From NCBI RefSeq assembly GCF_947493565.1, contig NZ_CANLRG010000005.1, positions 124,001-188,000 of the forward strand: a stretch of 64,000 nucleotides of DNA, given 5' to 3'. This DNA comes from an uncultured Lutibacter sp. Its GTDB lineage: Bacteria; Bacteroidota; Bacteroidia; Flavobacteriales; Flavobacteriaceae. The notes beneath the pieces are model-generated. The model ran no database searches and had not been told where the DNA came from. It saw only the letters and a list, made by a program, of their open reading frames with translations. A program made the translations under genes and the position numbers. Shown here piece after piece: positions 45,976 to 62,857 of the stretch (its first letter is position 1; each line of letters starts with the position of its first letter).

Positions 45976-46452
45976 TTAGATGAATAATATTTGAGTTCCT
46001 TCTACATCTGCTTTGCTATAAAAATCTCCAATAGTTAAGATTCCATCAAGATCATCAATTAAATCTTCTTCTTTTAAATGGAACATGTCCACGGCTAGTT
46101 TACAACCCCACATTTTTACACCAGAAGCTGATAGAATTTCTAAAAATTCATCAACAGGAGGCATATCTAGTTTTTCCATTTCTTTTTTCATCATTTTAGT
46201 TGCAAGTGCTTCCATACCAGGTAATCCACCTAGCATTGTAGGGATATGCATTGCTGGGTTTCCTACTGTTGCAACGTGTAAATGATTTAATTTTTTCTTT
46301 TGAATTGCTTCTAAGCCAAAGAATGTAAAAAATATTTCGGCTTCAATTCCTTCCATTCTAGCTCCGTTCGCCATTACAAAAGCAGCATATACATTTTCGA
46401 TTGTTGCCTTTGATAAGATGAACATCATTTTTTTAACTTTTGTTTTGCTCAT
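45976..46452 (-). CDS. DsrE/DsrF/DrsH-like sulfur relay protein (DsrE2-type)
   Basis: A 158-residue cytoplasmic DsrE-fold protein. The single conserved-looking cysteine (GVKMWGCKLAVDMF, Cys 117) lies where DsrE-family proteins hold a persulfide. HIPTMLGGLPGMEALATKMM is typical of the DsrE2 group found with rhodaneses and TusA/DsrC proteins. It probably passes sulfane sulfur to or from the TusE/DsrC-like protein encoded 17 bases upstream. It is the last gene of the operon. Confidence 0.88.
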   Translation of the reverse strand: MSKTKVKKMMFILSKATIENVYAAFVMANGARMEGIEAEIFFTFFGLEAIQKKKLNHLHVATVGNPAMHIPTMLGGLPGMEALATKMMKKEMEKLDMPPVDEFLEILSASGVKMWGCKLAVDMFHLKEEDLIDDLDGILTIGDFYSKADVEGTQILFI

Positions 46453-46469
46453 GACAGATATTTTAAATT

Positions 46470-46778
46470 TTAAATACAGCTTTTAGGTTTTGGTACACCT
46501 GCTATTTTTGTAGATACTTTAAGAGGTCCTCCAGGGAACAGAGCATAAAATTCTTTAATATCAACAACTCCACTTTTTTTAACTCCTCTTACTGATAAAG
46601 CCGTGCCAGCTTTAACTTGTTCTTGTATCCAATTGATTACTTCCCAATGACGGTCAGTCATTTCAATTCCTTCGTTTTTAGCGATTTCATTTCCAATTTC
46701 TTTATTCCAATTAGAAAAATCTTCTAAGTAGCCATCTTCAGTTACTATTACTTTTATTCCTGCTAATACTGCTTCCAT
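46470..46778 (-). CDS. TusE/DsrC-like sulfur carrier with only the penultimate cysteine
   Basis: A 102-residue protein of the DsrC/TusE family: DGYLEDFSNWNKEIGNEIA, HWEVINWIQEQ and the flexible C-terminal arm ending KIAGVPKPKSCI. The penultimate Cys 101 (CysA) is present. The second cysteine of true DsrC, 11 residues earlier, is Thr 90. It is thus a single-cysteine, TusE-like carrier, and no dsrAB sulfite reductase lies in the window. With SQR and DsrE neighbours it probably carries sulfane sulfur in the cytoplasm. Confidence 0.9.
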   Translation of the reverse strand: MEAVLAGIKVIVTEDGYLEDFSNWNKEIGNEIAKNEGIEMTDRHWEVINWIQEQVKAGTALSVRGVKKSGVVDIKEFYALFPGGPLKVSTKIAGVPKPKSCI

Positions 46779-46802: not shown

Positions 46803-48032
46803 TTATATTTTTTTTCCTTTAGTACTCATATTTCTACTTACAAATGGAATTGCTATTCCTTTTAATAACATATTCCAATATATCCATCTAAATGCTAATT
46901 TCCCCCAATGGTTAAAAATACTTTCTTTTAATAGTTTTAGAGGTCCAAAGCCTGCAAAAGGGAAAGTTCCTTCTACGGGTTCTTGTTCATAGTTAAAGTC
47001 AATTAATAATGCTTTATTGTGTCCTGTTTCAATAAAACAGTTTGCATGACCATCAAATTCTTCTTTTAAAGGTTTGTTATTTATAAATAATAATATGTTA
47101 TCTGTTAGTGTTTCAGCCTCAAAATGCGCTACTGATCCAGCTTTTGAAGCAGGAACATTGGTAGCATCACCAATCACAAAAATGTTTTGGTGCTCTTTAG
47201 ATTGTAAGGTGTTTGGGTGTGTAGGTACAAAGTTTAGTTCATCGCCCATTCCCGAACGCTCAATAACTTCATCTCCCATATTGGTTGGAACAGTTACTAA
47301 CAAATCATAATCAATCTCTTTTTCAGCATAGTCCACTATTTTGTTATTTTCATTATCTACATGTTCAATGGCAAAATCAGTTTCTAATTTTATATTTTTT
47401 TCTTTTAAAAGATAGCTTAATGAATTTGAACAAGTTTGTTTAGTGAAAGCACCTGAAAGTGGGGTAACGTAAGTGATGTCAACCTTGTCTCTCATTCCTT
47501 TTTTTGTAAAATATGAATCAGCTAAAAATGCAAATTCTAATGGAGCTACAGGGCATTTTATAGGCATTTCAGTAATATGTACTACTAATTTTCCACCTTG
47601 CCATGTTCTTAATTTGTTACGTAATGCTAAAGCACCTTCGTACGTATAAAAATCAAATACATTTTTATGCCAATTTTTACCTTTCATACCTTCTACTTCA
47701 TCTGGAGCAATTTTAGAACCAGTGGCTATAATTAAAATATCATAACTAAGAGTTTGATCTTCTAATTGCACTTTGTTTTCATTAGGTAAAATTTGTTCAA
47801 TTTTTTTCTGAATATAGTTGACTTCTTTAGGAATAAATTTTCCGCCAACTTTTTTAACTTGATTTTCTGTATAAATATCAAATGGTAAAAACAAAAAACC
47901 AGGTTGATAGTAATGTGTTTTATATTGATCTACAATAGTTATCTTCCACTCTTTTTTATTTAACTTAGGTCTTAAATGATTTGCCATCATTGTACCTGAA
48001 GTACCAGCACCAAGAATTAATAAGTTTTTCAT
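46803..48032 (-). CDS. Sulfide:quinone reductase-like flavoprotein
   Basis: A 409-residue FAD-binding oxidoreductase: LLILGAGTSGTMMANHLR binds FAD, LIIATGSKIAPDEVEG and IFVIGDATNVPASKAGSVAH complete the fold. Cys 160 (MPIKCPVAPLEF), Cys 201 and Cys 332 (GHANCFIETG) resemble the redox cysteines of SQR. A C-terminal amphipathic stretch (FRWIYWNMLLKGIAIPF) would hold it to the inner membrane. It probably oxidises sulfide to polysulfide with quinone, or works in reverse or on related sulfur compounds. It is first in an operon with TusE and DsrE; two GTWAC-type sites lie upstream. Confidence 0.85.
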   Translation of the reverse strand: MKNLLILGAGTSGTMMANHLRPKLNKKEWKITIVDQYKTHYYQPGFLFLPFDIYTENQVKKVGGKFIPKEVNYIQKKIEQILPNENKVQLEDQTLSYDILIIATGSKIAPDEVEGMKGKNWHKNVFDFYTYEGALALRNKLRTWQGGKLVVHITEMPIKCPVAPLEFAFLADSYFTKKGMRDKVDITYVTPLSGAFTKQTCSNSLSYLLKEKNIKLETDFAIEHVDNENNKIVDYAEKEIDYDLLVTVPTNMGDEVIERSGMGDELNFVPTHPNTLQSKEHQNIFVIGDATNVPASKAGSVAHFEAETLTDNILLFINNKPLKEEFDGHANCFIETGHNKALLIDFNYEQEPVEGTFPFAGFGPLKLLKESIFNHWGKLAFRWIYWNMLLKGIAIPFVSRNMSTKGKKI

Positions 48033-52183: not shown

Positions 52184-53185
52184 TTATTGAACTAATGGTA
52201 AATCTTTAGGCTTGCTATCAGCTCCCCATTGGTTTGAGCTAAATGCAGAATTTGTATTGTATAAACCATTCATACCAAAGGTTAAGCTATAAGCGTCATA
52301 TCCTAAAACTCTTAAGCAGGCGGTAACCACAGCTGAGGTTTGCCCTGTATAACAGTAGGTTACCACTTTTGCATTGGTTGCAGGATCTAAGCCTTTATAG
52401 CTATTATCAGCTAAGGTTAAAGGTAAAATTCTGTAAGCACCATCAATATGTCCAAATCCTGAGTAGTCTGCTTCAGAAAAGTAGTTGTTGATATAATAAT
52501 TAGTTGGATTGTTTAAAACATCTGTTCCAGTAACTGTTTTAAAACCAGCTTCTACAGCATCTTCCACTCTTTTTCTAAGAATTGTTCCACCATCAGTTGA
52601 TAAAGATGTAAATGAAGGGTCACTAAACACATTATTTGTTGGAGCTCCACCATAAGACCAATTTGAGTGTCCTTTAGCTTCTTCAACCCCAATTTTTCCA
52701 TTCCAAGGTCCTGCAGTAGTTGCATTCCAACCAGACATTCCCCATTTTAAAGCTTGGGTATGTGAAAATCCATACATACGCATTAAAGCTGTTGCATAGC
52801 AAGCAGTTTGTCCAGTATAACATACCATTAGAACAGGTTTGCTAGCAGCAGCTCCTTCAGTTAATATATCTTTAAATGCTATGTTTTTTGCACCTTCTAT
52901 ATGACCAGCAGCAAATGCATCAGCGCTTCTAATATCTAGAATAGTATATTTTGCGATAAATGCAGGAACATCTGCAGCTGTTGCAGGAGGGGCAGTTACA
53001 AATTTTTCACCGTCTGTATTTGTAATAATTTGATTAATATCCATATTATTTGTAATCAAATAATCTTTCATAAGTGTAAAAGCAGGAGCTGATACCACAT
53101 TTAGATCATCTCCTTTATCACAGGAGGTTAAAAAAAGTGATGGAATTAAGAATAATCCTATTAAAAATAATGATAGTTTTTTCAT
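52184..53185 (-). CDS. Lipoprotein with two rhodanese domains
   Basis: A 333-residue lipoprotein (signal ending FLTSC, Cys 22). The first rhodanese domain has TILDIRSADAFAAGHIEGAKN and active-site loop CYTGQTA (Cys 122); the second has FGHIDGAYRI and CYTGQTS (Cys 278). Both keep the catalytic cysteine, with Gln after Gly in the loop, unlike the usual Arg-type thiosulfate loop. It probably transfers sulfane sulfur in the periplasm. It is paralogous to the next gene upstream and is followed by the porin. Confidence 0.92.
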   Translation of the reverse strand: MKKLSLFLIGLFLIPSLFLTSCDKGDDLNVVSAPAFTLMKDYLITNNMDINQIITNTDGEKFVTAPPATAADVPAFIAKYTILDIRSADAFAAGHIEGAKNIAFKDILTEGAAASKPVLMVCYTGQTACYATALMRMYGFSHTQALKWGMSGWNATTAGPWNGKIGVEEAKGHSNWSYGGAPTNNVFSDPSFTSLSTDGGTILRKRVEDAVEAGFKTVTGTDVLNNPTNYYINNYFSEADYSGFGHIDGAYRILPLTLADNSYKGLDPATNAKVVTYCYTGQTSAVVTACLRVLGYDAYSLTFGMNGLYNTNSAFSSNQWGADSKPKDLPLVQ

Positions 53186-53231: not shown

Positions 53232-54221
53232 TTATTCTACTACAGGGAAGTTTTTTATCTCACTGCTGCTAAAGCCATTCCAGTTTTTTTCTACTAGATT
53301 TTTATTCATATAGCTATTAGCGCCATACGCTAAATTAGCAACATCGTATCCTAAAACATTTAAATAAGCTACTACATAAGCTGCTGTTTGTCCAGTATCA
53401 CAGCTAACTAGTACTTTTTTATTTGTAGGTAAAGTATATAGATTAGTTGTTGATGAAAGAGATGTTCTTGGTTCATACTTGATAGCGCCAGGAACGTGTC
53501 CGAAATTATATTTTTCTTCATTCACATAATTTATTATGTAGAAATTTTCAGGAGCTGCAAAAACATCTTCTACTTTTGTAATAAACTCTTTGTAAGGTGT
53601 TTCAAAGGCTTTTCTAATTCTTTCTTTTAAAATTTCAGAAGCTTCTGTTTTACCTGTATTTAATGTAGGATATTCACCTTTTTCTGGCATTGGATTGGCA
53701 GTTTTCTCAACTTGATCAGCAAAATCATTTTTAGAATTTTTTACCCAAATATTTTGAGCAAATTCTTCAGCCCAAGAACTCATACCCCATTTTAAACTAT
53801 ATACATTATCAAAACCATAAAGTCTTAAAAGGCTTGCATAATAAGCTGCAGATTGTCCTGAATAGCATACGATAGTTATTTTTTTGTAATCAGAAGGTGT
53901 AATTTCGTTTTCAAAATAATTAAGTAATTCAGGACCTTTTACATTTTTGGCATTTTTTATATGACCATAATCGAACCAGCTTTCACTTCTAATATCTAAT
54001 ACTAAATATTCTTTATTTTTTAGGTTCTCTTTAATTTCATCAGCTAATACAATTGCAGGTGCATGATTACTGTTTATAAAGTTTCCATTTGCCTCTAAAT
54101 GTTGAACTAAAAGTTCAAATTCTGTTGGAGGGTTATTTTCTTGTTGTTGATTACTTTTAAAACTACTAAATAAGGTAGCTGTTATAAAAAGTAGTACTAA
54201 ATATGATGTTAATTTTTTCAT
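53232..54221 (-). CDS. Exported protein with two rhodanese domains
   Basis: A 329-residue exported protein (N-terminal hydrophobic segment, residues about 5-20). Two rhodanese domains: LVLDIRSESWFDYGHIKNAK with loop CYSGQSA (Cys 119), and FGHVPGAIKYEPRT with loop CDTGQTA (Cys 274). Gene order, domain order and loops show it arose by duplication with the neighbour at 52184. Role: periplasmic sulfur transfer. Upstream lie sites ATGA-N6-TCAT (54295) and GTWAC type (54339), marking it as first in its operon. Confidence 0.92.
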   Translation of the reverse strand: MKKLTSYLVLLFITATLFSSFKSNQQQENNPPTEFELLVQHLEANGNFINSNHAPAIVLADEIKENLKNKEYLVLDIRSESWFDYGHIKNAKNVKGPELLNYFENEITPSDYKKITIVCYSGQSAAYYASLLRLYGFDNVYSLKWGMSSWAEEFAQNIWVKNSKNDFADQVEKTANPMPEKGEYPTLNTGKTEASEILKERIRKAFETPYKEFITKVEDVFAAPENFYIINYVNEEKYNFGHVPGAIKYEPRTSLSSTTNLYTLPTNKKVLVSCDTGQTAAYVVAYLNVLGYDVANLAYGANSYMNKNLVEKNWNGFSSSEIKNFPVVE

Positions 54222-54535: not shown

Positions 54536-55153
54536 CTAACAACCGCCTTCAACAGGCATTTTCTTTTTCTTTTTAATTGGAATAATTTTTTTAGGAGTTT
54601 TAATAACTTTAGGTGTTGGTTTTGGTTGTAAAGCAGCTTTTTTAATGGATTCGCTTATAAATGCGTTTATATCGGCTTCCGATTTTTCAACAACTATATT
54701 TTGTGTGATTAATTTGTTTTGACTGTAACTGTTTTTTATAGTTGCAATTTTTAGGTTTTGATATCCTAATTGATGTAAAATCATAAATGGAACCACTACT
54801 TCTTCAGGAGTATTTCCATACATTATAATGGTTTTATTTGTGCTTTTTAACTCTTCTAAAATACCTGTATTTTCTTCATTTAAAATTTCAGGAGCATACA
54901 TATTTAGGGCATTGTTTAAATGTCCTTTTTCAAATTCATATTGATTTCTAATGTCTATTAAAATAACATCTGAGTTTTCAATTTCATTTAGGGAAATTAA
55001 ATAATTTTCAGTGGTGATATTTTCTAAAGTAGTTTTAGAATTTACTGCATACATATGTTTTGGTCTTTTATACGTTAAAAGTCCAATAAGTACTACAAGT
55101 ATAAAAAGTACTGAAGCTATAGATATTCGTTTAGTTTTTTCTAATTCTTTCAT
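54536..55153 (-). CDS. Membrane-anchored degenerate rhodanese with VEGGC tail (copy 2)
   Basis: A 205-residue protein: one N-terminal membrane helix (residues 12-27), a rhodanese-like domain with DVILIDIRNQYEFEKGHLNN, then a Pro/Lys-rich linker and the end PKKIIPIKKKKKMPVEGGC. The catalytic loop reads MYGNTPEE, so the active-site cysteine is gone; the terminal Cys 205 is the only cysteine in the protein. I chose the ATG at 55153 over an in-frame TTG at 55171. It forms a pair with the preceding gene (18-base gap) that shares the same tail. The arm could carry sulfur like the GGCGG end of SoxY; that is inference. Confidence 0.85.
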   Translation of the reverse strand: MKELEKTKRISIASVLFILVVLIGLLTYKRPKHMYAVNSKTTLENITTENYLISLNEIENSDVILIDIRNQYEFEKGHLNNALNMYAPEILNEENTGILEELKSTNKTIIMYGNTPEEVVVPFMILHQLGYQNLKIATIKNSYSQNKLITQNIVVEKSEADINAFISESIKKAALQPKPTPKVIKTPKKIIPIKKKKKMPVEGGC

Positions 55154-55171
55154 ATAATAGATATTTAACAA

Positions 55172-55837
55172 TTAACAACCTCCTTCAACAGGCATTTTCT
55201 TTTTCTTTTTAATTGGAATTACCTTTTTTGGAGTTACTTTTTTTACTTCAGGTTTTTTTTCTATTTTAAGCTGTTCTGGATAAACTACGCCAAAAAACAT
55301 ACTCGCAGATTTTCTAAATGAATATAGTTCAAAATCTTCTGCTGGCATATTTTCAGTAGGTTTTGTAGGATTTATAATTGTTAAATACCAATTATTGATC
55401 CCACCTTTTAGAACTCTTAAATTTTTATAATCTAATCTATTACACAATACCCAAGCTTGATCTGCGTAAAAGTGATCATTTGAAATAAATATAACATCAT
55501 ACTGATTTTGATTAAGATATCCAATAGCATCTTCATCTAATAATTTTTTTAATGGAATATTTATTGAATTAGGGATTGAGTATTTATTAAATTCGTTCTC
55601 ATTTCTAACATCAATCATTATAAATGATGGATCTTGATTTATAATTTTATTTGCTAATTCATCAGTTGAAATATATCTTTCTGGACTTATAGCATTACTC
55701 AATAATTCTTCAGGCTTTATTCCTTCATGTTTTTCGTACTTTGGAAGTAGTACTAAACCTGCAGCTAGTAATAAAAATATGCCAGCGAGTATTTTATATC
55801 TAAAAGTTAAAACTTTTGCTACTTTTCTATTAACCAT
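55172..55837 (-). CDS. Membrane-anchored degenerate rhodanese with VEGGC tail (copy 1)
   Basis: A 221-residue protein: membrane helix (residues about 15-31), rhodanese-like domain with FIMIDVRNENEFNKYSIPNS, then a linker and the end PKKVIPIKKKKKMPVEGGC. The catalytic loop reads FISNDHFYAD without cysteine; the only cysteines are Cys 132 (in a buried-looking WVLCNRL helix) and terminal Cys 221. The last 38 bases before the terminal codons are identical to those of the next gene, while the rest of the two proteins has diverged strongly. It lies 15 bases after a YeeE gene. Confidence 0.87.
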   Translation of the reverse strand: MVNRKVAKVLTFRYKILAGIFLLLAAGLVLLPKYEKHEGIKPEELLSNAISPERYISTDELANKIINQDPSFIMIDVRNENEFNKYSIPNSINIPLKKLLDEDAIGYLNQNQYDVIFISNDHFYADQAWVLCNRLDYKNLRVLKGGINNWYLTIINPTKPTENMPAEDFELYSFRKSASMFFGVVYPEQLKIEKKPEVKKVTPKKVIPIKKKKKMPVEGGC

Positions 55838-55852
55838 TCTAATTTTTTTAAA

Positions 55853-56443
55853 TTAATAAAATATTTTTTTTCTTCTTTTTCTGATTAAATCTGAAATTAC
55901 AAAGGCAAGGATTGCAATTATAGTAAAAACAAATACAAACCAATAACGATTGATACCAAAGGAATCCATTAAAGTTATATTACCATAAAAATAACCTTCA
56001 TAGAGTGGTTGAAATACGGTATATAATTCAGAAAAAATAAATATTCCTACCATAATACCAATTACATAAACTATAGCGTCAATTTTTCCAATGGCAACAG
56101 CACATAAGCTTGTTCCAGGGCAAAAACCAGCTGAAACAAAACCTACTCCCATGATAACGCCTCCAATTATTGCTCCCCATAAATAGGTTGGGTGAACATA
56201 TAGTTGCTCCATATTTATATAACCAAGGTAATCCATATATAAAATACCAATAAGTGATACTAATGCAGCAGTAAAAAACACTTTAAGCACTGCAAAATCG
56301 TATCCGTAAAATACTCCTGCTAATTTTCGTGAAGAAGAAAACCCTGATGCTTCTAAAACAAATCCGAAAACAATTCCAATGATAATTGCTATTATGTTGT
56401 TCCACTCATAAGGTATGACTCCATTAGGAATTAAAGGTCCCAT
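55853..56443 (-). CDS. YeeE/YedE family transporter, half-size (second half)
   Basis: A 196-residue membrane protein with about five helices. GFVLEASGFSSSRKLAGVFYG and GFVSAGFCPGTSLCAVAIGK are YeeE/YedE (DUF395) signatures; cysteines in CPGTSLC may handle sulfur atoms as in the thiosulfate importer TsuA. Full TsuA is about 350 residues, so this and the next gene upstream probably form one two-subunit transporter. It probably moves thiosulfate or sulfane sulfur across the inner membrane. Confidence 0.88.
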   Translation of the reverse strand: MGPLIPNGVIPYEWNNIIAIIIGIVFGFVLEASGFSSSRKLAGVFYGYDFAVLKVFFTAALVSLIGILYMDYLGYINMEQLYVHPTYLWGAIIGGVIMGVGFVSAGFCPGTSLCAVAIGKIDAIVYVIGIMVGIFIFSELYTVFQPLYEGYFYGNITLMDSFGINRYWFVFVFTIIAILAFVISDLIRKRRKKIFY

Positions 56444-56465: not shown

Positions 56466-56990
56466 TTAAATCCAATTTTTTCTAAAGAAATATGCTACTA
56501 AGAATCCTGTTCCAAAAATAGCAAGCATAGTTATAAAACCACCTGTTGATAATACCGCCATACCACTTAAAGCAGCACCGCTTGTACAACCACGAGCAAC
56601 TTGTGCACCAATACCAAATAATATTCCACCACCTAAAGCAAATAGCAATCTTCTGTTTTTAGTTATTTTAGGTGAATGTTGAGTTCTCCAGCCAATTCTA
56701 CCGGCCAATCCACCCGAAATAAAAGCTCCAATTAAAACGCCTAAAGCTTCAAAAACTAACCAAGAGTTTAAGGGAGATTTTTCATCTTTTACAAATTTAC
56801 TGTAGTAGGCATTGTTTTCTGCATGGTTTGAAGCCAATGCATCAACAATAGTTACTACACCACTTTTCATAGCGCCACTTGCACCTAGTCCTCTTCCTGT
56901 CATATAAAAAGTGAAAAGAATAAGTATTCCTAGAAGAAAACCACCAAAGTATGGATTCCAGTATGTATGTTTATTTTTTTGAATATTCAT
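56466..56990 (-). CDS. YeeE/YedE family transporter, half-size (first half)
   Basis: A 174-residue membrane protein with about four helices, containing GGILFGIGAQVARGCTSGAA and LSGMAVLSTGG, the second half-motif type of YeeE proteins (Cys in RGCTSG). It pairs with the gene 22 bases downstream. The N-terminal part (GILILFTFYMTGRGLGASGA) and a polar loop around residues 50-80 fit an inserted periplasmic segment. Role: uptake or release of a sulfur compound for the operon's redox enzymes. Confidence 0.88.
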   Translation of the reverse strand: MNIQKNKHTYWNPYFGGFLLGILILFTFYMTGRGLGASGAMKSGVVTIVDALASNHAENNAYYSKFVKDEKSPLNSWLVFEALGVLIGAFISGGLAGRIGWRTQHSPKITKNRRLLFALGGGILFGIGAQVARGCTSGAALSGMAVLSTGGFITMLAIFGTGFLVAYFFRKNWI

Positions 56991-57000
56991 AATATTTGTT

Positions 57001-57942
57001 TTAATATAAGTATCTAGTTATTTGTCCAGCTTCTACCATTACAAATCTAAAAACTAAACCACCTATTAAAATTAAGATTGCTGGCACAGCAACTGGTACT
57101 TTGTACCCAATTAATTCTGTTAGTTCTAAAATAGCGGGAACTATAAGTCCTAAAATAATTACAAAGCCAAAAAACATAAGAGTAAACTCACCTCCAACTA
57201 ATAGTTGCATGGCCTCTAATTGTACTTCAGAACCAGCGTACATTCCCATCAGCATATGGATTATCAACCCTAACTCAATAACAATAAGGGCTAAATCAAT
57301 TTTGCTGAAAAGATGTCTTTCTTTAGCGTTTTTAGCTAATAAAATAATGGTTGCTGCTCCTGTTGATAAACCAGATGTTAAAAATAATGGACCTAGTATT
57401 GCATTATTCCACAAAGGTCTGGCATTAAAAGCTGATAATAATATTCCTGTATAAATACCTAGTACAATTGATAATGGAATTAAAGCTATCGCCATATTCA
57501 TTCTATTTTCTTGAAGGAATTTTTCGAACGTGTTTAAAAAATTAAACTTCAATTTCCATTTAGGAAATAATTCAGTATAATAACTAAATACCCATAAAAA
57601 TGAAATAGGGGTAATGATTAATAATACCCAAGCACCCCAACTCATAGGAGATTCAATTCTGATAGTTGTGTATAATCTCCAAAAATATAATTTGTGAGTT
57701 AAATCATAAAATAAAGCCAATAAACCTAATGTTAAAGCAATTGGAGATACAATTGATGCAAACTTAACCGCTGCAGGATATTCTTTGTCCTTTTTTAAAA
57801 CAGTAATTAATGCTGCAAAAAACAGTAATCCAGCAGCCAAGCCTCCTAAAAATAAGTATACAGATATTGGCCAGTGCCATATTTGTAATGAAGGATCTAT
57901 ATTTGGAATATTTCTTCCACTTGTAAATAATTCTTCTTGCAT
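57001..57942 (-). CDS. NrfD/PsrC-type membrane subunit
   Basis: A 313-residue protein with eight to nine helices. WHWPISVYLFLGGLAAGLLF is the typical NrfD/PsrC opening, followed by WRLYTTIRIESPMSWGAWVL. It exchanges electrons between the menaquinone pool and the FeS subunit encoded 10 bases upstream. Together with the FeS and molybdopterin subunits it forms a polysulfide-reductase-like (PsrABC) respiratory complex in the inner membrane. Confidence 0.9.
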   Translation of the reverse strand: MQEELFTSGRNIPNIDPSLQIWHWPISVYLFLGGLAAGLLFFAALITVLKKDKEYPAAVKFASIVSPIALTLGLLALFYDLTHKLYFWRLYTTIRIESPMSWGAWVLLIITPISFLWVFSYYTELFPKWKLKFNFLNTFEKFLQENRMNMAIALIPLSIVLGIYTGILLSAFNARPLWNNAILGPLFLTSGLSTGAATIILLAKNAKERHLFSKIDLALIVIELGLIIHMLMGMYAGSEVQLEAMQLLVGGEFTLMFFGFVIILGLIVPAILELTELIGYKVPVAVPAILILIGGLVFRFVMVEAGQITRYLY

Positions 57943-57952
57943 AATTTTTAAT

Positions 57953-58486
57953 TTATATTAAATAATAAACTTGAGGCTTAGTTCCTGCTTCAGGAGCCAA
58001 TGTTTTATGTTTTCTATTTTTTAACAATTGCGAAACTTCACTATTTGGATCATCTAAATCCCCGAAATACATACATTTAGTTGGGCAAACAGATACACAA
58101 GCTGGAAGTTGTCCTTTTTCTAATCTATGATGACAGAATGTACATTTGTCTACATAACCATCAGGGTGTTGGTAACGAGCGTCGTATGGGCAAGATTCTA
58201 TACAAGCACCACATCCAATGCATTCATCAGCCGTAACTAATACAATGCCATTGTCTAATTGATGACTAGCACCTGTTGGACAGCATCTTACACAAGGAGC
58301 ATTATCGCAATGATTACATCTTTCAGATTTTAATTCTAATTCTATACTTGGATAAGCACCGTTAACAGTTTCGGTTATCCAATCTCTACAGTATCCAATA
58401 GGAACATTATTTTCGGTTTGACAAGCAACTACACAATCGCTACATCCAACACATTTTAAGGTGTCAATTACCATTGCATATCTCAT
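57953..58486 (-). CDS. Ferredoxin-like FeS subunit, PsrB/NrfC type
   Basis: A 177-residue protein with four [4Fe-4S] cluster motifs: CVGCSDCVVAC, CNHCDNAPCVRCC, CIGCGACIESC, and CTFCHHRLEKG...CVSVCPTKC. It conducts electrons between the molybdopterin subunit and the NrfD-type membrane subunit on the periplasmic face. It has no signal peptide and is probably exported with its Tat-signal-bearing partner, whose gene it overlaps by 4 bases. Confidence 0.94.
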   Translation of the reverse strand: MRYAMVIDTLKCVGCSDCVVACQTENNVPIGYCRDWITETVNGAYPSIELELKSERCNHCDNAPCVRCCPTGASHQLDNGIVLVTADECIGCGACIESCPYDARYQHPDGYVDKCTFCHHRLEKGQLPACVSVCPTKCMYFGDLDDPNSEVSQLLKNRKHKTLAPEAGTKPQVYYLI

Positions 58487-60726
58487 AACTCAATATTTTT
58501 ATGTGGATTTTCAGTTAAAATTGATACAAAATTTCCTCTCATACCAGTCCCACCCATAATTGGGTCGATAGCTACTTTTGAAATTAGTTGAGTATCGTTA
58601 ATACCTTTTCCAAAGGCGCGACTTAATTTTTTATTGGTGTGTCCAAAACCATGAACCATATAAACAGAATCCCAACGAACTCTTTCCGTAACTCTAACTT
58701 TAATTGGGAAATTAGAAGTAATTTCATCCTGATTTTTTAACCAAACTTCTTGCCCTGTTTTTAAGCCTAAAATTCTAGCAACTTTTGGGTTCACCCATAA
58801 ATTATTTTCACTTTTTAAATCGTTTAAATTAGGGTTATTAGCTGTTCTACTAAATGTATGCATTGGAGCTCTACCATAATTTAATCGGTAAAAGCCTTGT
58901 GGAGGTTCTGGGTGTTTTATGTAATTTGGCAATGGGTCAAAACCTAAATTTTTTAATTCTTGAGAATACAATTCAATTTTACCACTAGCTGTTGGAAAAT
59001 GATAGGCTTCATTTTCATTTAAGTATAATGGACCCGATGTTCTTGAAAAATTTTTCACTCCAATTTTATTCATTTCGTCTAAAGAGGTTCCCATTTGTTG
59101 TAACTGCCATTCAATTACTTCTTCATAATCATCATAATTAAAATAGTCACCTAAACCTAAACGTTCTCCAATTTGTTTTGCTACCCACCATCCCGGTTTA
59201 GAATCGTATTTTGGTTTAACAGCTGGCACTCGAACAGCAATTGAAGGCTCTCTATTAGTTGCAGATCTTATATCATCATAACGTTCTAAATAAGTACATT
59301 CAGGTAAAACTACATCTGCATACCCAGTAACATCCATCGGCATGGTATCCATTACAACCATAAATTCTAATTCATCCATTGCTTTTTCAAGCATTTCTTT
59401 TTCTGGAATAGATTTGGTAATATTAGTACCGGCAACCATCCAAGCTTTTATAGGATATTTATTATCTTTACTAGGGATTGAACATTTAATAACTTCACTT
59501 GTAATACCCATTTGAGCTACAGGATATTTCTCTCCAATATTTTTCCAATCCCACTTAGGATGAGGGTATTTTGGTGAAGGGTATTTAGGAACTTTAATAC
59601 TTTCTTTAAAGTAGAAACCACCTCTACGACCCCAAGAACCTAATAAAGCATTTAAAATAGCTATTGAACGAGCTCTTTGAGTATCATCTCCATACCAACT
59701 TACATGGCGTCCTGGATGTATAATAACTGATGGAGAAGCACTTGCCATTGCTCTAGCAGTTTTTCTAATTTCTTCAGGTTTTATAGTTGTTATTCCATAA
59801 GCCCATTCAGGAGTAAAAGTACTCACATGGTCTTTTAATTGATTAAATCCTGTAGTGTATTTTTCAACATATTCTTTATCATATAAACCTTCCTCAATAA
59901 TTACATTCATCCAAGCAAGCATTAAAGCTATATCTGTAGCAGGTTTGATAGCTAACCAATGTTTTGATTTGCTAGCTGCTGTTGAAAAGCGTGGATCTAC
60001 TGTAATGATTGTAGCACCATTATCAATTGCATCTGACATTTCTTGCACTTGAGAATTGTGCATGTTTTCACCAATATGAGATCCAATTAACACTAAGCAT
60101 TTGGTGTCTCTAATGTCAGTTGGTTCAGGTGAACCAACCCAAGATCCATAGGTTAATGCAAAACCTGCTTCACGAGCACCTCTACATTGTGCATAAGCTG
60201 GTTCTGCGATGGTGTCTGATCCAAAAGCTTTAAATAAATGTTCTAAATGTTTTCCAGGTGACCCATGTTTTAATAAGGCAATAGCTTCTGGGCCATATTT
60301 TTCTTTAATATTGCTAAATTTTGAAGCAATTAAATCAAGAGCTTCTTCCCAACTGGCTTCTCTAAACGTTTCTTCTCCATTAATAGTTGTTCTAATTAAA
60401 GGAGTTTTTAATCGATCTTCATCATTATACATTCCAACACCACCAGTTCCTCTTGGACATAAACGTCCGTAGCAATGTGAGTCATTTTCATTACCAATAA
60501 TTTTTTGAATATTACCTTCTTCATCGGTATAAGTCCAAGCAGCACATTTCCAAAAACAAACTTCGCAATAAGTAGGAGTTCTCTTAAATTTTTTGGTAAC
60601 ATTTTGTTTTACAAGCTCATCTAAATATGAGTTTGCACCAAACATATTTAGTGCACTTGTAGTAGCTGCTACACCACCCAAACCTAATGCAGAAATTTTA
60701 ATAAATTTTCTTCTTGAAGTAGTCAT
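58483..60726 (-). CDS. Molybdopterin oxidoreductase, PsrA/PhsA-like catalytic subunit
   Basis: A 747-residue protein with a twin-arginine signal (TSRRKFIK). An N-terminal [4Fe-4S] site is formed by Cys 54, 57, 61 and 90. The probable molybdenum or tungsten ligand is Cys 181 (AYAQCRGAREAGF), as in PsrA/PhsA and nitrate reductase NapA groups. Later segments (CLVLIGSHIGENMHNSQ, VLPECTYLERYDD, the C-terminal INDTQLISKVAIDPIMGGTG) fit the DMSO-reductase superfamily. Context (rhodaneses, YeeE, SQR) favours polysulfide, thiosulfate or tetrathionate as substrate over nitrate or arsenate, but sequence alone does not settle it. First gene of its operon. Confidence 0.9.
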   Translation of the reverse strand: MTTSRRKFIKISALGLGGVAATTSALNMFGANSYLDELVKQNVTKKFKRTPTYCEVCFWKCAAWTYTDEEGNIQKIIGNENDSHCYGRLCPRGTGGVGMYNDEDRLKTPLIRTTINGEETFREASWEEALDLIASKFSNIKEKYGPEAIALLKHGSPGKHLEHLFKAFGSDTIAEPAYAQCRGAREAGFALTYGSWVGSPEPTDIRDTKCLVLIGSHIGENMHNSQVQEMSDAIDNGATIITVDPRFSTAASKSKHWLAIKPATDIALMLAWMNVIIEEGLYDKEYVEKYTTGFNQLKDHVSTFTPEWAYGITTIKPEEIRKTARAMASASPSVIIHPGRHVSWYGDDTQRARSIAILNALLGSWGRRGGFYFKESIKVPKYPSPKYPHPKWDWKNIGEKYPVAQMGITSEVIKCSIPSKDNKYPIKAWMVAGTNITKSIPEKEMLEKAMDELEFMVVMDTMPMDVTGYADVVLPECTYLERYDDIRSATNREPSIAVRVPAVKPKYDSKPGWWVAKQIGERLGLGDYFNYDDYEEVIEWQLQQMGTSLDEMNKIGVKNFSRTSGPLYLNENEAYHFPTASGKIELYSQELKNLGFDPLPNYIKHPEPPQGFYRLNYGRAPMHTFSRTANNPNLNDLKSENNLWVNPKVARILGLKTGQEVWLKNQDEITSNFPIKVRVTERVRWDSVYMVHGFGHTNKKLSRAFGKGINDTQLISKVAIDPIMGGTGMRGNFVSILTENPHKNIEL

Positions 60727-60967: not shown

Positions 60968-62857
60968 ATGAAATTAAAATACTCTAAATTTTGGTTTTTT
61001 TTGGTAGTTACAATTTTAATTGTAGCTCTATTTTTTGTTAAAAATTTTAAGCTTCAACAAGAAATAATAAAAGAAGATAATTATGTTAAAATTGAAACTA
61101 TTGAAAAGGAGACTTGTTTAGAGTGTCATCAAAATACCAAGGGATATTCTAATTACCATAATCCAGAATTAATAGGTTGTATAAGTTGTCATTTAGGAAA
61201 TCCAAACACTATGGATAAGGATGATTCTCATAAAGGAATGGTTCTAATTCCAGGGAATTTAAAAGATGCTAAAGCAACTTGTGGAGTTTGCCATCCAAAT
61301 GAATTAAACAAGATTGAAAACTCTTTAATGACCACTAATAGTGGTTTGGTGGCTGTAGATAAATATATTTTTGGAGAAGCTGATAGCCCAAATGGTAGAT
61401 ACCACATTCAATTAATTGAAAACTCAGCTTCAGATAAACATTTAAGAGATTTATGTGCAAATTGTCACTTAGGAGCACAAAAAGAAGAATTTGGACCAAT
61501 AACACAGTTGAGTAGAGGTGGAGGTTGTAATGCTTGTCATTTAAATTATTCTGATGAAGCAATAAAAGATTTAAAGACTTATTTAACTTCAAATAAAAAG
61601 GAATTACCTCAATTTCACCCAGCAACTGATATTTTTGTAACCAATGAACATTGTTTTGGTTGCCATAGTCGATCTAGTAGAATTTCAACAAATTATGAAG
61701 GATTTCAAGAAACACTGCTAGATGAAAGTGAAGTGATAGCTAAAGATGGATTTAAGGTAATAGAAGATAAAAGAGTTTATAAATATATTGGAGAAGATGT
61801 ACACCATACAAAAGGAATGTTATGCATAGATTGTCATTCTTCACATGAAGTAATGGGCGATGGTAAGCGTTATATTCATGAAGAACAAGCTGTTAAAGTA
61901 CAATGCTCAGATTGTCATTTTAAAGAGCAACCCAATACTGTACCTTATGATTCTTTAGATGCGGAAAGTTTATTGGTTTTTTTACACAGAGATTATAAAC
62001 ATTCAGATAAAGAGATAGTTGCAGTTAAAAAAGGAGGGCACCCATTAGTAAATACATTTGTTGATTCGCTTGGAAATGCTTTTTTAATTGGAAAGAGAGA
62101 TGGAGAGTTGCACCCTTTAAATCCACAATCAGAGGTTTGTTCAAGAGATAATGCACATAAAAATGTAAGTTGTGCAACTTGCCATTCTTCTTGGACTACA
62201 CGTTGTATAGGCTGCCATAATGAATATGATAAAAACGAACCACGAGCTTTTGACTTGTTAGATAGAAAGTATGGCAAAGGACAATGGAAAGAATTTGTAG
62301 CAGAGTTTTCATCATCATTACCAGCTATGGGAGTTCGAGAAAATTCGGAAGTCATACATATTGAACCTGCCGTTCCTGGAATGATTTTAACGATTGATAA
62401 GGGTAGTTATTCTGGAAAAGAGTTAGGAGAAGATGTTTCTTTTCATAGATTATATGCACCAAACTCGCCTCATACAACTACTGCTAAAGTTAGAGATTGT
62501 AAAAGTTGTCATACCAACCCAGCTACTTTAGGTTATGGTAATGGTGAATTAATTTATAAAATTAGTGAAGGTGTTGGAACATGGAGTTTTACTCCAGCCT
62601 ATGAATTAAATCCAAATGATGGTTTACCTGAAGATGCTTGGATTCCTTTTTTAAAAGAAGTGGATAAAAATGTGGTTAATTCTACTAGAACAGATTTTAG
62701 ACCATTTACTGTAAAAGAGCAACAAGAATTGTTGTTAGTTGGAGCTTGTTTACAATGTCATAAAGAAGACTCTAAGGAGATGAAACAAAGTTTAATTACT
62801 GGTATTCAGCCATTATTGAAAAAATTAGATAAAAGTTGTATATTGCCAACATGGTAA
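60968..62857 (+). CDS. Twelve-haem c-type cytochrome
   Basis: A 629-residue protein with one N-terminal membrane helix (residues about 9-25) and exactly twelve CXXCH haem motifs: CLECH, CISCH, CGVCH, CANCH, CNACH, CFGCH, CIDCH, CSDCH, CATCH, CIGCH, CKSCH, CLQCH. It must be assembled in the periplasm and carry electrons, or act as a reductase or oxidase itself. It stands divergent to the PsrA-like operon with shared control sites, so it probably exchanges electrons with that complex. I see no catalytic signature of nitrite, tetrathionate or hydroxylamine multihaem enzymes that I can name with confidence. Confidence 0.9.
   Translation: MKLKYSKFWFFLVVTILIVALFFVKNFKLQQEIIKEDNYVKIETIEKETCLECHQNTKGYSNYHNPELIGCISCHLGNPNTMDKDDSHKGMVLIPGNLKDAKATCGVCHPNELNKIENSLMTTNSGLVAVDKYIFGEADSPNGRYHIQLIENSASDKHLRDLCANCHLGAQKEEFGPITQLSRGGGCNACHLNYSDEAIKDLKTYLTSNKKELPQFHPATDIFVTNEHCFGCHSRSSRISTNYEGFQETLLDESEVIAKDGFKVIEDKRVYKYIGEDVHHTKGMLCIDCHSSHEVMGDGKRYIHEEQAVKVQCSDCHFKEQPNTVPYDSLDAESLLVFLHRDYKHSDKEIVAVKKGGHPLVNTFVDSLGNAFLIGKRDGELHPLNPQSEVCSRDNAHKNVSCATCHSSWTTRCIGCHNEYDKNEPRAFDLLDRKYGKGQWKEFVAEFSSSLPAMGVRENSEVIHIEPAVPGMILTIDKGSYSGKELGEDVSFHRLYAPNSPHTTTAKVRDCKSCHTNPATLGYGNGELIYKISEGVGTWSFTPAYELNPNDGLPEDAWIPFLKEVDKNVVNSTRTDFRPFTVKEQQELLLVGACLQCHKEDSKEMKQSLITGIQPLLKKLDKSCILPTW

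Follow-up and report, generated by a model that had tools for sequence, protein, structure and literature searches.

Paired rhodanese-like proteins with a conserved C-terminal cysteine tail beside split YeeE/YedE transporter genes in Lutibacter and other Bacteroidota: candidate extracytoplasmic sulfur carriers

The window, by which we mean the whole stretch of 64,000 nucleotides analysed here from an uncultured Lutibacter sp. (Flavobacteriaceae; contig NZ_CANLRG010000005.1, positions 124,001 to 188,000), carries on its minus strand an operon-like row of genes for a molybdoenzyme, a ferredoxin, an NrfD-type subunit, two half YeeE/YedE transporters and two adjacent rhodanese-like proteins, RhdB and RhdA, followed by tRhd1, tRhd2, a porin and a Crp-type regulator. 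The relevant features are given below; assignments of transmembrane (TM) helices, TAT starts, signal-peptide starts and lipoprotein starts were made by eye.

60968..62857, plus strand: divergent multihaem cytochrome c; nearest NCBIfam model ExtM (selenite/tellurite operons), far below cutoff
58483..60726, minus strand: molybdopterin enzyme with TAT-like start SRRKFIK; nearest NCBIfam model PhsA, 484 bits, below the cutoff of 694
57953..58486, minus strand: 4Fe-4S ferredoxin subunit (domain search)
57001..57942, minus strand: NrfD-type membrane subunit (domain search)
56466..56990, minus strand: yeeE1, half transporter, PmpA-like, matching the C-terminal half of TsuA
55853..56443, minus strand: yeeE2, half YeeE/YedE transporter, PmpB-like, matching the N-terminal half of TsuA
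55172..55837, minus strand: rhdB, 221 aa, with N-terminal TM-like helix, rhodanese domain without loop Cys, and tail
55481..55483, minus strand: Ser119 codon of rhdB, in the catalytic-Cys column of the alignment
55175..55291, minus strand: tail of rhdB, Lys/Pro-rich, ending VEGGC; residues 183-221 (39), net charge +8, terminal Cys221
54536..55153, minus strand: rhdA, paralogue, 205 aa, with N-terminal TM-like helix, rhodanese domain without loop Cys, and tail ending VEGGC
54815..54817, minus strand: Gly113 codon of rhdA, in the catalytic-Cys column of the alignment
54539..54634, minus strand: tail of rhdA, residues 174-205, net charge +9
53232..54221, minus strand: tRhd1, tandem rhodanese with loop Cys and signal-peptide-like start; its homologues in loci L074-L077 bear a GGCG tail
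52184..53185, minus strand: tRhd2, tandem rhodanese with lipoprotein-like start (domain search)
46803..48032, minus strand: SQR/FCSD-like flavoprotein, family guessed from sequence; Pfam Pyr_redox_2 and weak FCSD_central
46470..46778, minus strand: DsrC-like protein with C-terminal KPKSCI, candidate cytoplasmic acceptor
45976..46452, minus strand: DsrE2-like protein, candidate cytoplasmic acceptor

The multihaem cytochrome recurs next to the molybdoenzyme in many loci. The DsrC-like gene, lying between the DsrE2-like and SQR/FCSD-like genes, encodes a second candidate carrier with a C-terminal cysteine in the same island.

Both RhdB and RhdA contain the Pfam rhodanese domain (PF00581; 52.6 and 42.3 bits, respectively, against a cutoff of 22.2) and their predicted folds match solved rhodanese structures in a structure search, which bears out the fold attributed to them in an initial annotation of this DNA. 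Their Pfam and NCBIfam matches were to rhodanese or rhodanese-containing models only, with no SoxY domain, and no NCBIfam model scored above its cutoff for either protein. A TTG-started RhdA of 211 aa is probably too long, and the ATG at 55153 is favoured because the listed homologues of 203-205 aa begin there. The adjacent proteins share the C-terminal tail KKKKKMPVEGGC, and their genes an exact run of 38 bases that ends 10 bases before each gene's end, in agreement with the near-identical VEGGC tails and about 38 shared bases described initially; the cysteine counts given then are also correct, RhdA having Cys205 alone and RhdB Cys132 in addition to Cys221. The last 39 residues of RhdB show pLDDT block means of about 40-55 in the predicted structure, as would be expected if this tail were a flexible arm.

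Among the homologues listed, the end EGGC is found in 120 of 120 for B (the best 120 of 862) and in 119 of 120 for A (the best 120 of 733), the window's own proteins included, and the single exception, P0148, stops within the tail. Genomes of all phyla were also scanned for relatives with two peptide words, yielding 75 near-family loci that all bear Bacteroidota names. The six genes moA-fes-nrfD-yeeE1-yeeE2-rhdB occur in this order in 66 of them, and the remaining nine are without leading genes only, which would lie beyond the reach of the contig. An A-type gene comes next after rhdB in 72 loci, the contigs of the other three ending at most 208 bases from rhdB. All 74 complete B proteins and 66 of the 71 complete A proteins end in GGC or GGCG (B of L063 and A of L009 and L020, incomplete at contig ends, stand outside these counts, and no A was reached in L063, L072 and L078); the end is SGGCG in a distant clade formed by L072 and L074-L078. 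The initial annotation had named a tailless homologue in a kept neighbourhood as evidence against its reading: such homologues were found for rhdA in L031, L041 and L051, and B has its tail in all three. The other two A exceptions are frameshifted, with the tail letters in other frames in L073 and the tail on the second fragment in L056. The frameshift of L073 (L073:9655-10221, rhdA of a Tamlana isolate) lies before the poly-Lys tract and is either a mutation or a sequencing error. In L041, where rhdA is tailless, a tandem rhodanese paralogous to tRhd1 (L041:10604-11665) ends VQEGGC, a possible compensation. A wider B-type search (best 120 rows of 2897 matches) gave 111 new proteins, 106 of which end in GGC or GGCG and five of which are tailless (P0311, P0320, P0321, P0323 and P0333). 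An exact terminal GGCGG was not seen among these relatives, the ends being GGC or GGCG.

At the level of the phylum, 395 Bacteroidota genomes were searched with a profile of B, which gave 61 matches spread over 58 of them, and every match was read. The cysteine is last or last but one in 60 of the 61 (GGC, EGC, DGC, RMGC, GGCx and one FQC), the exception, L188, being a short ordinary rhodanese with a loop Cys. Profile A3 holds tail columns, which gives a small bias to tailed proteins, and the reverse search with yeeE2, a query with no tail, is without this bias: it gave 37 matches at E<=4.1e-34 in 198 genomes, and each has a rhodanese with a C-terminal Cys next to it or fused to it (most were read in sequence stretches, seven being judged from match coordinates). 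Near seven weak matches (E 9e-19 to 2e-9), no ORF of more than 80 aa ending in GGC, EGC, MGC or GGCx was found. Locus L192 was considered as a YeeE pair without a tailed rhodanese, a reading that was rejected since the rhodanese, missed by the profile, is present by eye and ends NEGC. The two glycines are not universal, as L142 ends RFQC and 17 of the 52 tailed phylum proteins are without GG.

Both proteins of the window had been described as having lost the loop cysteine, and the homologues agree with few exceptions. The catalytic column, Ser in RhdB and Gly in RhdA, holds Ser in 75 of 75 B homologues and Cys in none of 73 A homologues (two gapped), and Cys in 41 of 46 tRhd1. The cysteine of the tail is kept far better than that of the loop (74/74 versus 0/75 for B, 66/71 versus 0/73 for A). 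In the phylum set, a Cys occupies the column in two of 53 proteins, L188, which is not tailed, and L122, hence in one of the 52 tailed proteins; a loop-position Cys in addition to the terminal one is found in a single genus, in L095/L122 (one genome) and in L099. A Cys lies near the column, not in it, in L032 and L079 (A), L070 (B) and L130. The A-like protein of L079 (L079:9681-10340, a Bacteroidales MAG) has CGSC just past the loop column, plus an EGGC tail. RhdB and RhdA have a rhodanese fold, yet, judged by their loops, would not be active rhodaneses.

The gene context was compared in 51 flanked loci (L111-L150, L181-L187 and L189-L192). Seventeen have a molybdoenzyme of the PhsA/PsrA type, Psr and Phs enzymes being indistinguishable by catalytic-subunit sequence (PMC7887784), 29 have a relative of octahaem tetrathionate reductase with a cytochrome b, and five have neither within the stretch. 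All six octahaem proteins tested scored 568-584 bits against the TIGR04315 cutoff of 375, the other octahaem assignments being by similarity. In 29 of 29 loci, the genes for the octahaem protein, cytochrome b and yeeE1 share a strand and are separated by no more than 201 bases. Furthermore, yeeE2 and the tailed rhodanese form a single open frame in 29 of the 51 loci, a fusion that Pfam confirmed in the one protein tested (L098 and L125); by context, 28 of the 29 fusions belong to octahaem loci and one to a molybdoenzyme locus (L124). In L131, yeeE2 and the rhodanese are in separate frames with one TAG inside the yeeE2 match, and a stop may have divided a fused gene there. What all 51 loci have in common is the tailed rhodanese, and the genes conserved around it are moA or otr, and yeeE. 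Mapping of the gene neighbours, as proposed in the initial annotation, thus places a sulfur transporter nearly always, and one of two reductase types often, beside the tailed rhodaneses, with split Sulf_transp halves, a feature of YeeE/YedE and PmpAB, adjoining the tailed gene. The exception is L112, with a molybdoenzyme, both tailed rhodaneses and no yeeE genes, and the transporter is therefore not an obligate neighbour.

The background frequency of such ends was taken from non-overlapping ORFs of at least 120 aa in L006-L080 and L111-L150, which are mechanical and uncurated. A terminal Cys was found in two of 1333 non-family ORFs, one of them the tandem rhodanese of L041, and a Cys in the last two positions in 11 of 1333 (seven being tRhd1) versus 180 of 185 family ORFs. 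The tRhd1 of L012 and L018 end APGCD, a near-terminal Cys of a different kind. Chance was rejected as the source of the tail on this background. So was a general C-terminal sorting signal, given the same two of 1333 and the confinement of the pattern to two genes, rhdB and rhdA being the sole ones found in their own genome with PVEGGC codons followed by a stop.

The tail had been ascribed to strong constraint or recent copying, and both act. RhdB and RhdA share on average 26% identity in their bodies and 88% in their last 14 residues (61 pairs), and the longest common run between shuffled bodies has a mean of 10.5 bases and a maximum of 15 (200 trials), against the 38 bases of the window's pair. 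Tails agree more within a genome than between shuffled genomes, in residues (0.88 vs 0.69) as in codons (0.70 vs 0.57). The codon agreement of 0.70 also exceeds the 0.59 expected by codon usage, with the excess outside Lys codons, which argues for some homogenisation, and in L075 the last 36 bases are common to B and A. In L074 and L077 an identical or almost identical tail peptide is encoded by different codons, which points to constraint at the protein level; pure gene conversion was rejected as the tail's cause on these different codons and the 26% body identity. A midpoint-rooted tree built on 56 rhodanese bodies sets the tailed twins and the phylum proteins apart from tRhd1 (100/100), with A in its own clade. 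This split suggests that the tRhd1 of the GGCG clade acquired their tail separately.

The charges flanking the TM helix of rhdA leave its orientation unfixed, and the outside placement rests on homologues. Three proteins per locus end in GGCG in L074-L077, namely B, an A-like protein and tRhd1 (the latter in four of four). The A-like protein has a lipoprotein-like signal by eye, as do, at their starts, the tRhd1 of L074 and L076, the two inspected. Since lipoproteins are exported, these GGCG tails lie outside the cytoplasm. Of the initial proposal of periplasmic swinging-arm carriers built on dead rhodanese folds, the extracytoplasmic placement is upheld in the lipoprotein homologues, and the dead loop, the flexible tail and the linkage to sulfur genes are upheld as well; the carriage of sulfur itself we infer.

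Taken together, we find it rather probable that RhdB and RhdA are extracytoplasmic, membrane-anchored pseudo-rhodaneses whose tail thiol carries sulfur between the reductase and the PmpAB-like transporter. The broader reading, which we also favour although with some more reserve, is that they belong to a Bacteroidota-wide class of extracytoplasmic sulfur carriers whose reactive cysteine has left the loop for a GGC arm at the C-terminus. By convergence this class would be a counterpart of SoxYZ, serving two kinds of thionate or polysulfide reductase and loading a PmpAB-type importer, to which it is sometimes fused. Sulfur carriage, its chemistry, the docking and the direction of flow are here drawn by analogy with known systems. 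With a loop made dead by Ser or Gly, the working thiol would sit at the tip of the tail, which is long, flexible and positively charged; there the cysteine could take up a sulfane sulfur or a thionate fragment as persulfide or S-thiosulfonate. On one side of its swing the arm would meet the catalytic site of its partner reductase, which is a PhsA/PsrA-type molybdoenzyme here and, elsewhere in Bacteroidota, an octahaem tetrathionate reductase; on the other it would meet the split YeeE/YedE transporter at its outer mouth. The transporter would pass the sulfur to the cytoplasm, where DsrE2 and DsrC are the candidate acceptors in the window. The duplicated arms of Flavobacteriaceae may let two thiols hold one polysulfide.

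Other roles for the conserved thiol have to be weighed against sulfur carriage. The linkage in 37 of 37 yeeE2 matches and the fusion to yeeE2 would also suit a gate or redox sensor, whose cysteine arm would enter the PmpAB-like transporter and, through a mixed disulfide, open or close it or signal the sulfur status with no cargo; a SoxT paralogue has a signalling role (PMC11582611). However, L112 retains its tails without yeeE genes, and a third tail in L074-L077, borne by a rhodanese with a loop Cys, exceeds the needs of a gate, and we consider this role unlikely. A little less likely again would be a structural one, in which a disulfide through the terminal Cys holds RhdA in a complex with RhdB or the reductase, as might fit the paired tails of Flavobacteriaceae and their likeness within a genome (0.88 vs 0.69 shuffled). 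Such a tether leaves the linkage to sulfur transport unexplained and sits poorly with the single tailed protein per locus in the stretches examined of L113-L150 as well as with the three tails of L074-L077.

The nature of the cargo raises a further alternative, with selenium, tellurium or a metal on the thiol in place of sulfur. The best NCBIfam score of yeeE2 is with the selenium YedE model and that of the cytochrome with ExtM of the selenite/tellurite operon, but both are far below cutoff, the reason for which selenium transport was rejected; moreover, the nearby reductases belong to thiosulfate/polysulfide and tetrathionate families and the island of the window includes DsrC, DsrE2 and further rhodaneses, so that we hold such a cargo to be improbable, slightly more so than a disulfide tether. 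Finally, a functionless tail, spread and kept identical by gene conversion or as a common repeat, could account for the codon agreement above expectation and for the 36 identical last bases of B and A in L075. It is largely refuted by the single-copy fusions without a visible partner, and GGC is retained at 26% body identity and written with different codons in L074 and L077, which makes this explanation extremely improbable.

DsrC is a cytoplasmic carrier with a cysteine on a flexible C-terminal arm and a fold other than rhodanese; the proteins described here resemble it in their arm, differ from it in fold and in their extracytoplasmic placement, and share their island with a DsrC-like gene. 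Sud is a periplasmic rhodanese-type protein that serves a Psr-type molybdoenzyme and acts through its single Cys in the rhodanese site, unlike RhdB and RhdA, whose loop Cys is lost and whose best-kept Cys stands at the tail end. It is named as the polysulfide-sulfur transferase of Wolinella in PMC4522728. In SoxY, sulfur is bound on the Cys of a C-terminal GGCGG that acts as a swinging arm (PMC6067878; PMC5336275). The tailed rhodaneses are like SoxY in being extracytoplasmic sulfur-pathway proteins with a C-terminal Gly-Gly-Cys arm (GGC or GGCG here), and unlike it in having a rhodanese fold and, for neighbours, PmpAB-like halves and reductases, not sox genes as far as seen. A tailed rhodanese may work as SoxY does, by analogy and not by homology, and is not a SoxY.

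Thiol proteins are also known beside YeeE-family transporters. YeeD (TsuB) is described as an essential partner of YeeE (TsuA) with a Cys modified by thiosulfate (PMC11073785) and as a soluble cytoplasmic TusA-like protein (PMC11582611). RhdB and RhdA resemble it as thiol proteins with a transporter partner of the same family, but they are not of this TusA-like or cytoplasmic type, having a rhodanese domain and lipoprotein homologues, and thus a lipid anchor in one clade. YedE1E2, a PmpAB-type pair, imports zero-valent sulfur with one essential Cys per half (PMC10812762), and the window has two half-transporters of this split type (PMC11582611; PMC10812762), whereas a rhodanese partner with a C-terminal Cys is unmentioned in the available portions of these two accounts. 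We found no description of such a tail in the open-licence literature. For Lutibacter, a genome paper noted SQR and polysulfide reductase, and that thiosulfate gave no stimulation (PMC5219744).

How sulfur is delivered from outside the cell to YeeE-type transporters is still debated (PMC11582611). With a carrier known by its terminal GGC, a sulfur route in Bacteroidota would become testable and gain a genomic marker. If true, the sulfur-carrier reading would mean that a reactive thiol has moved, by convergence, out of an enzyme pocket and onto a swinging arm.
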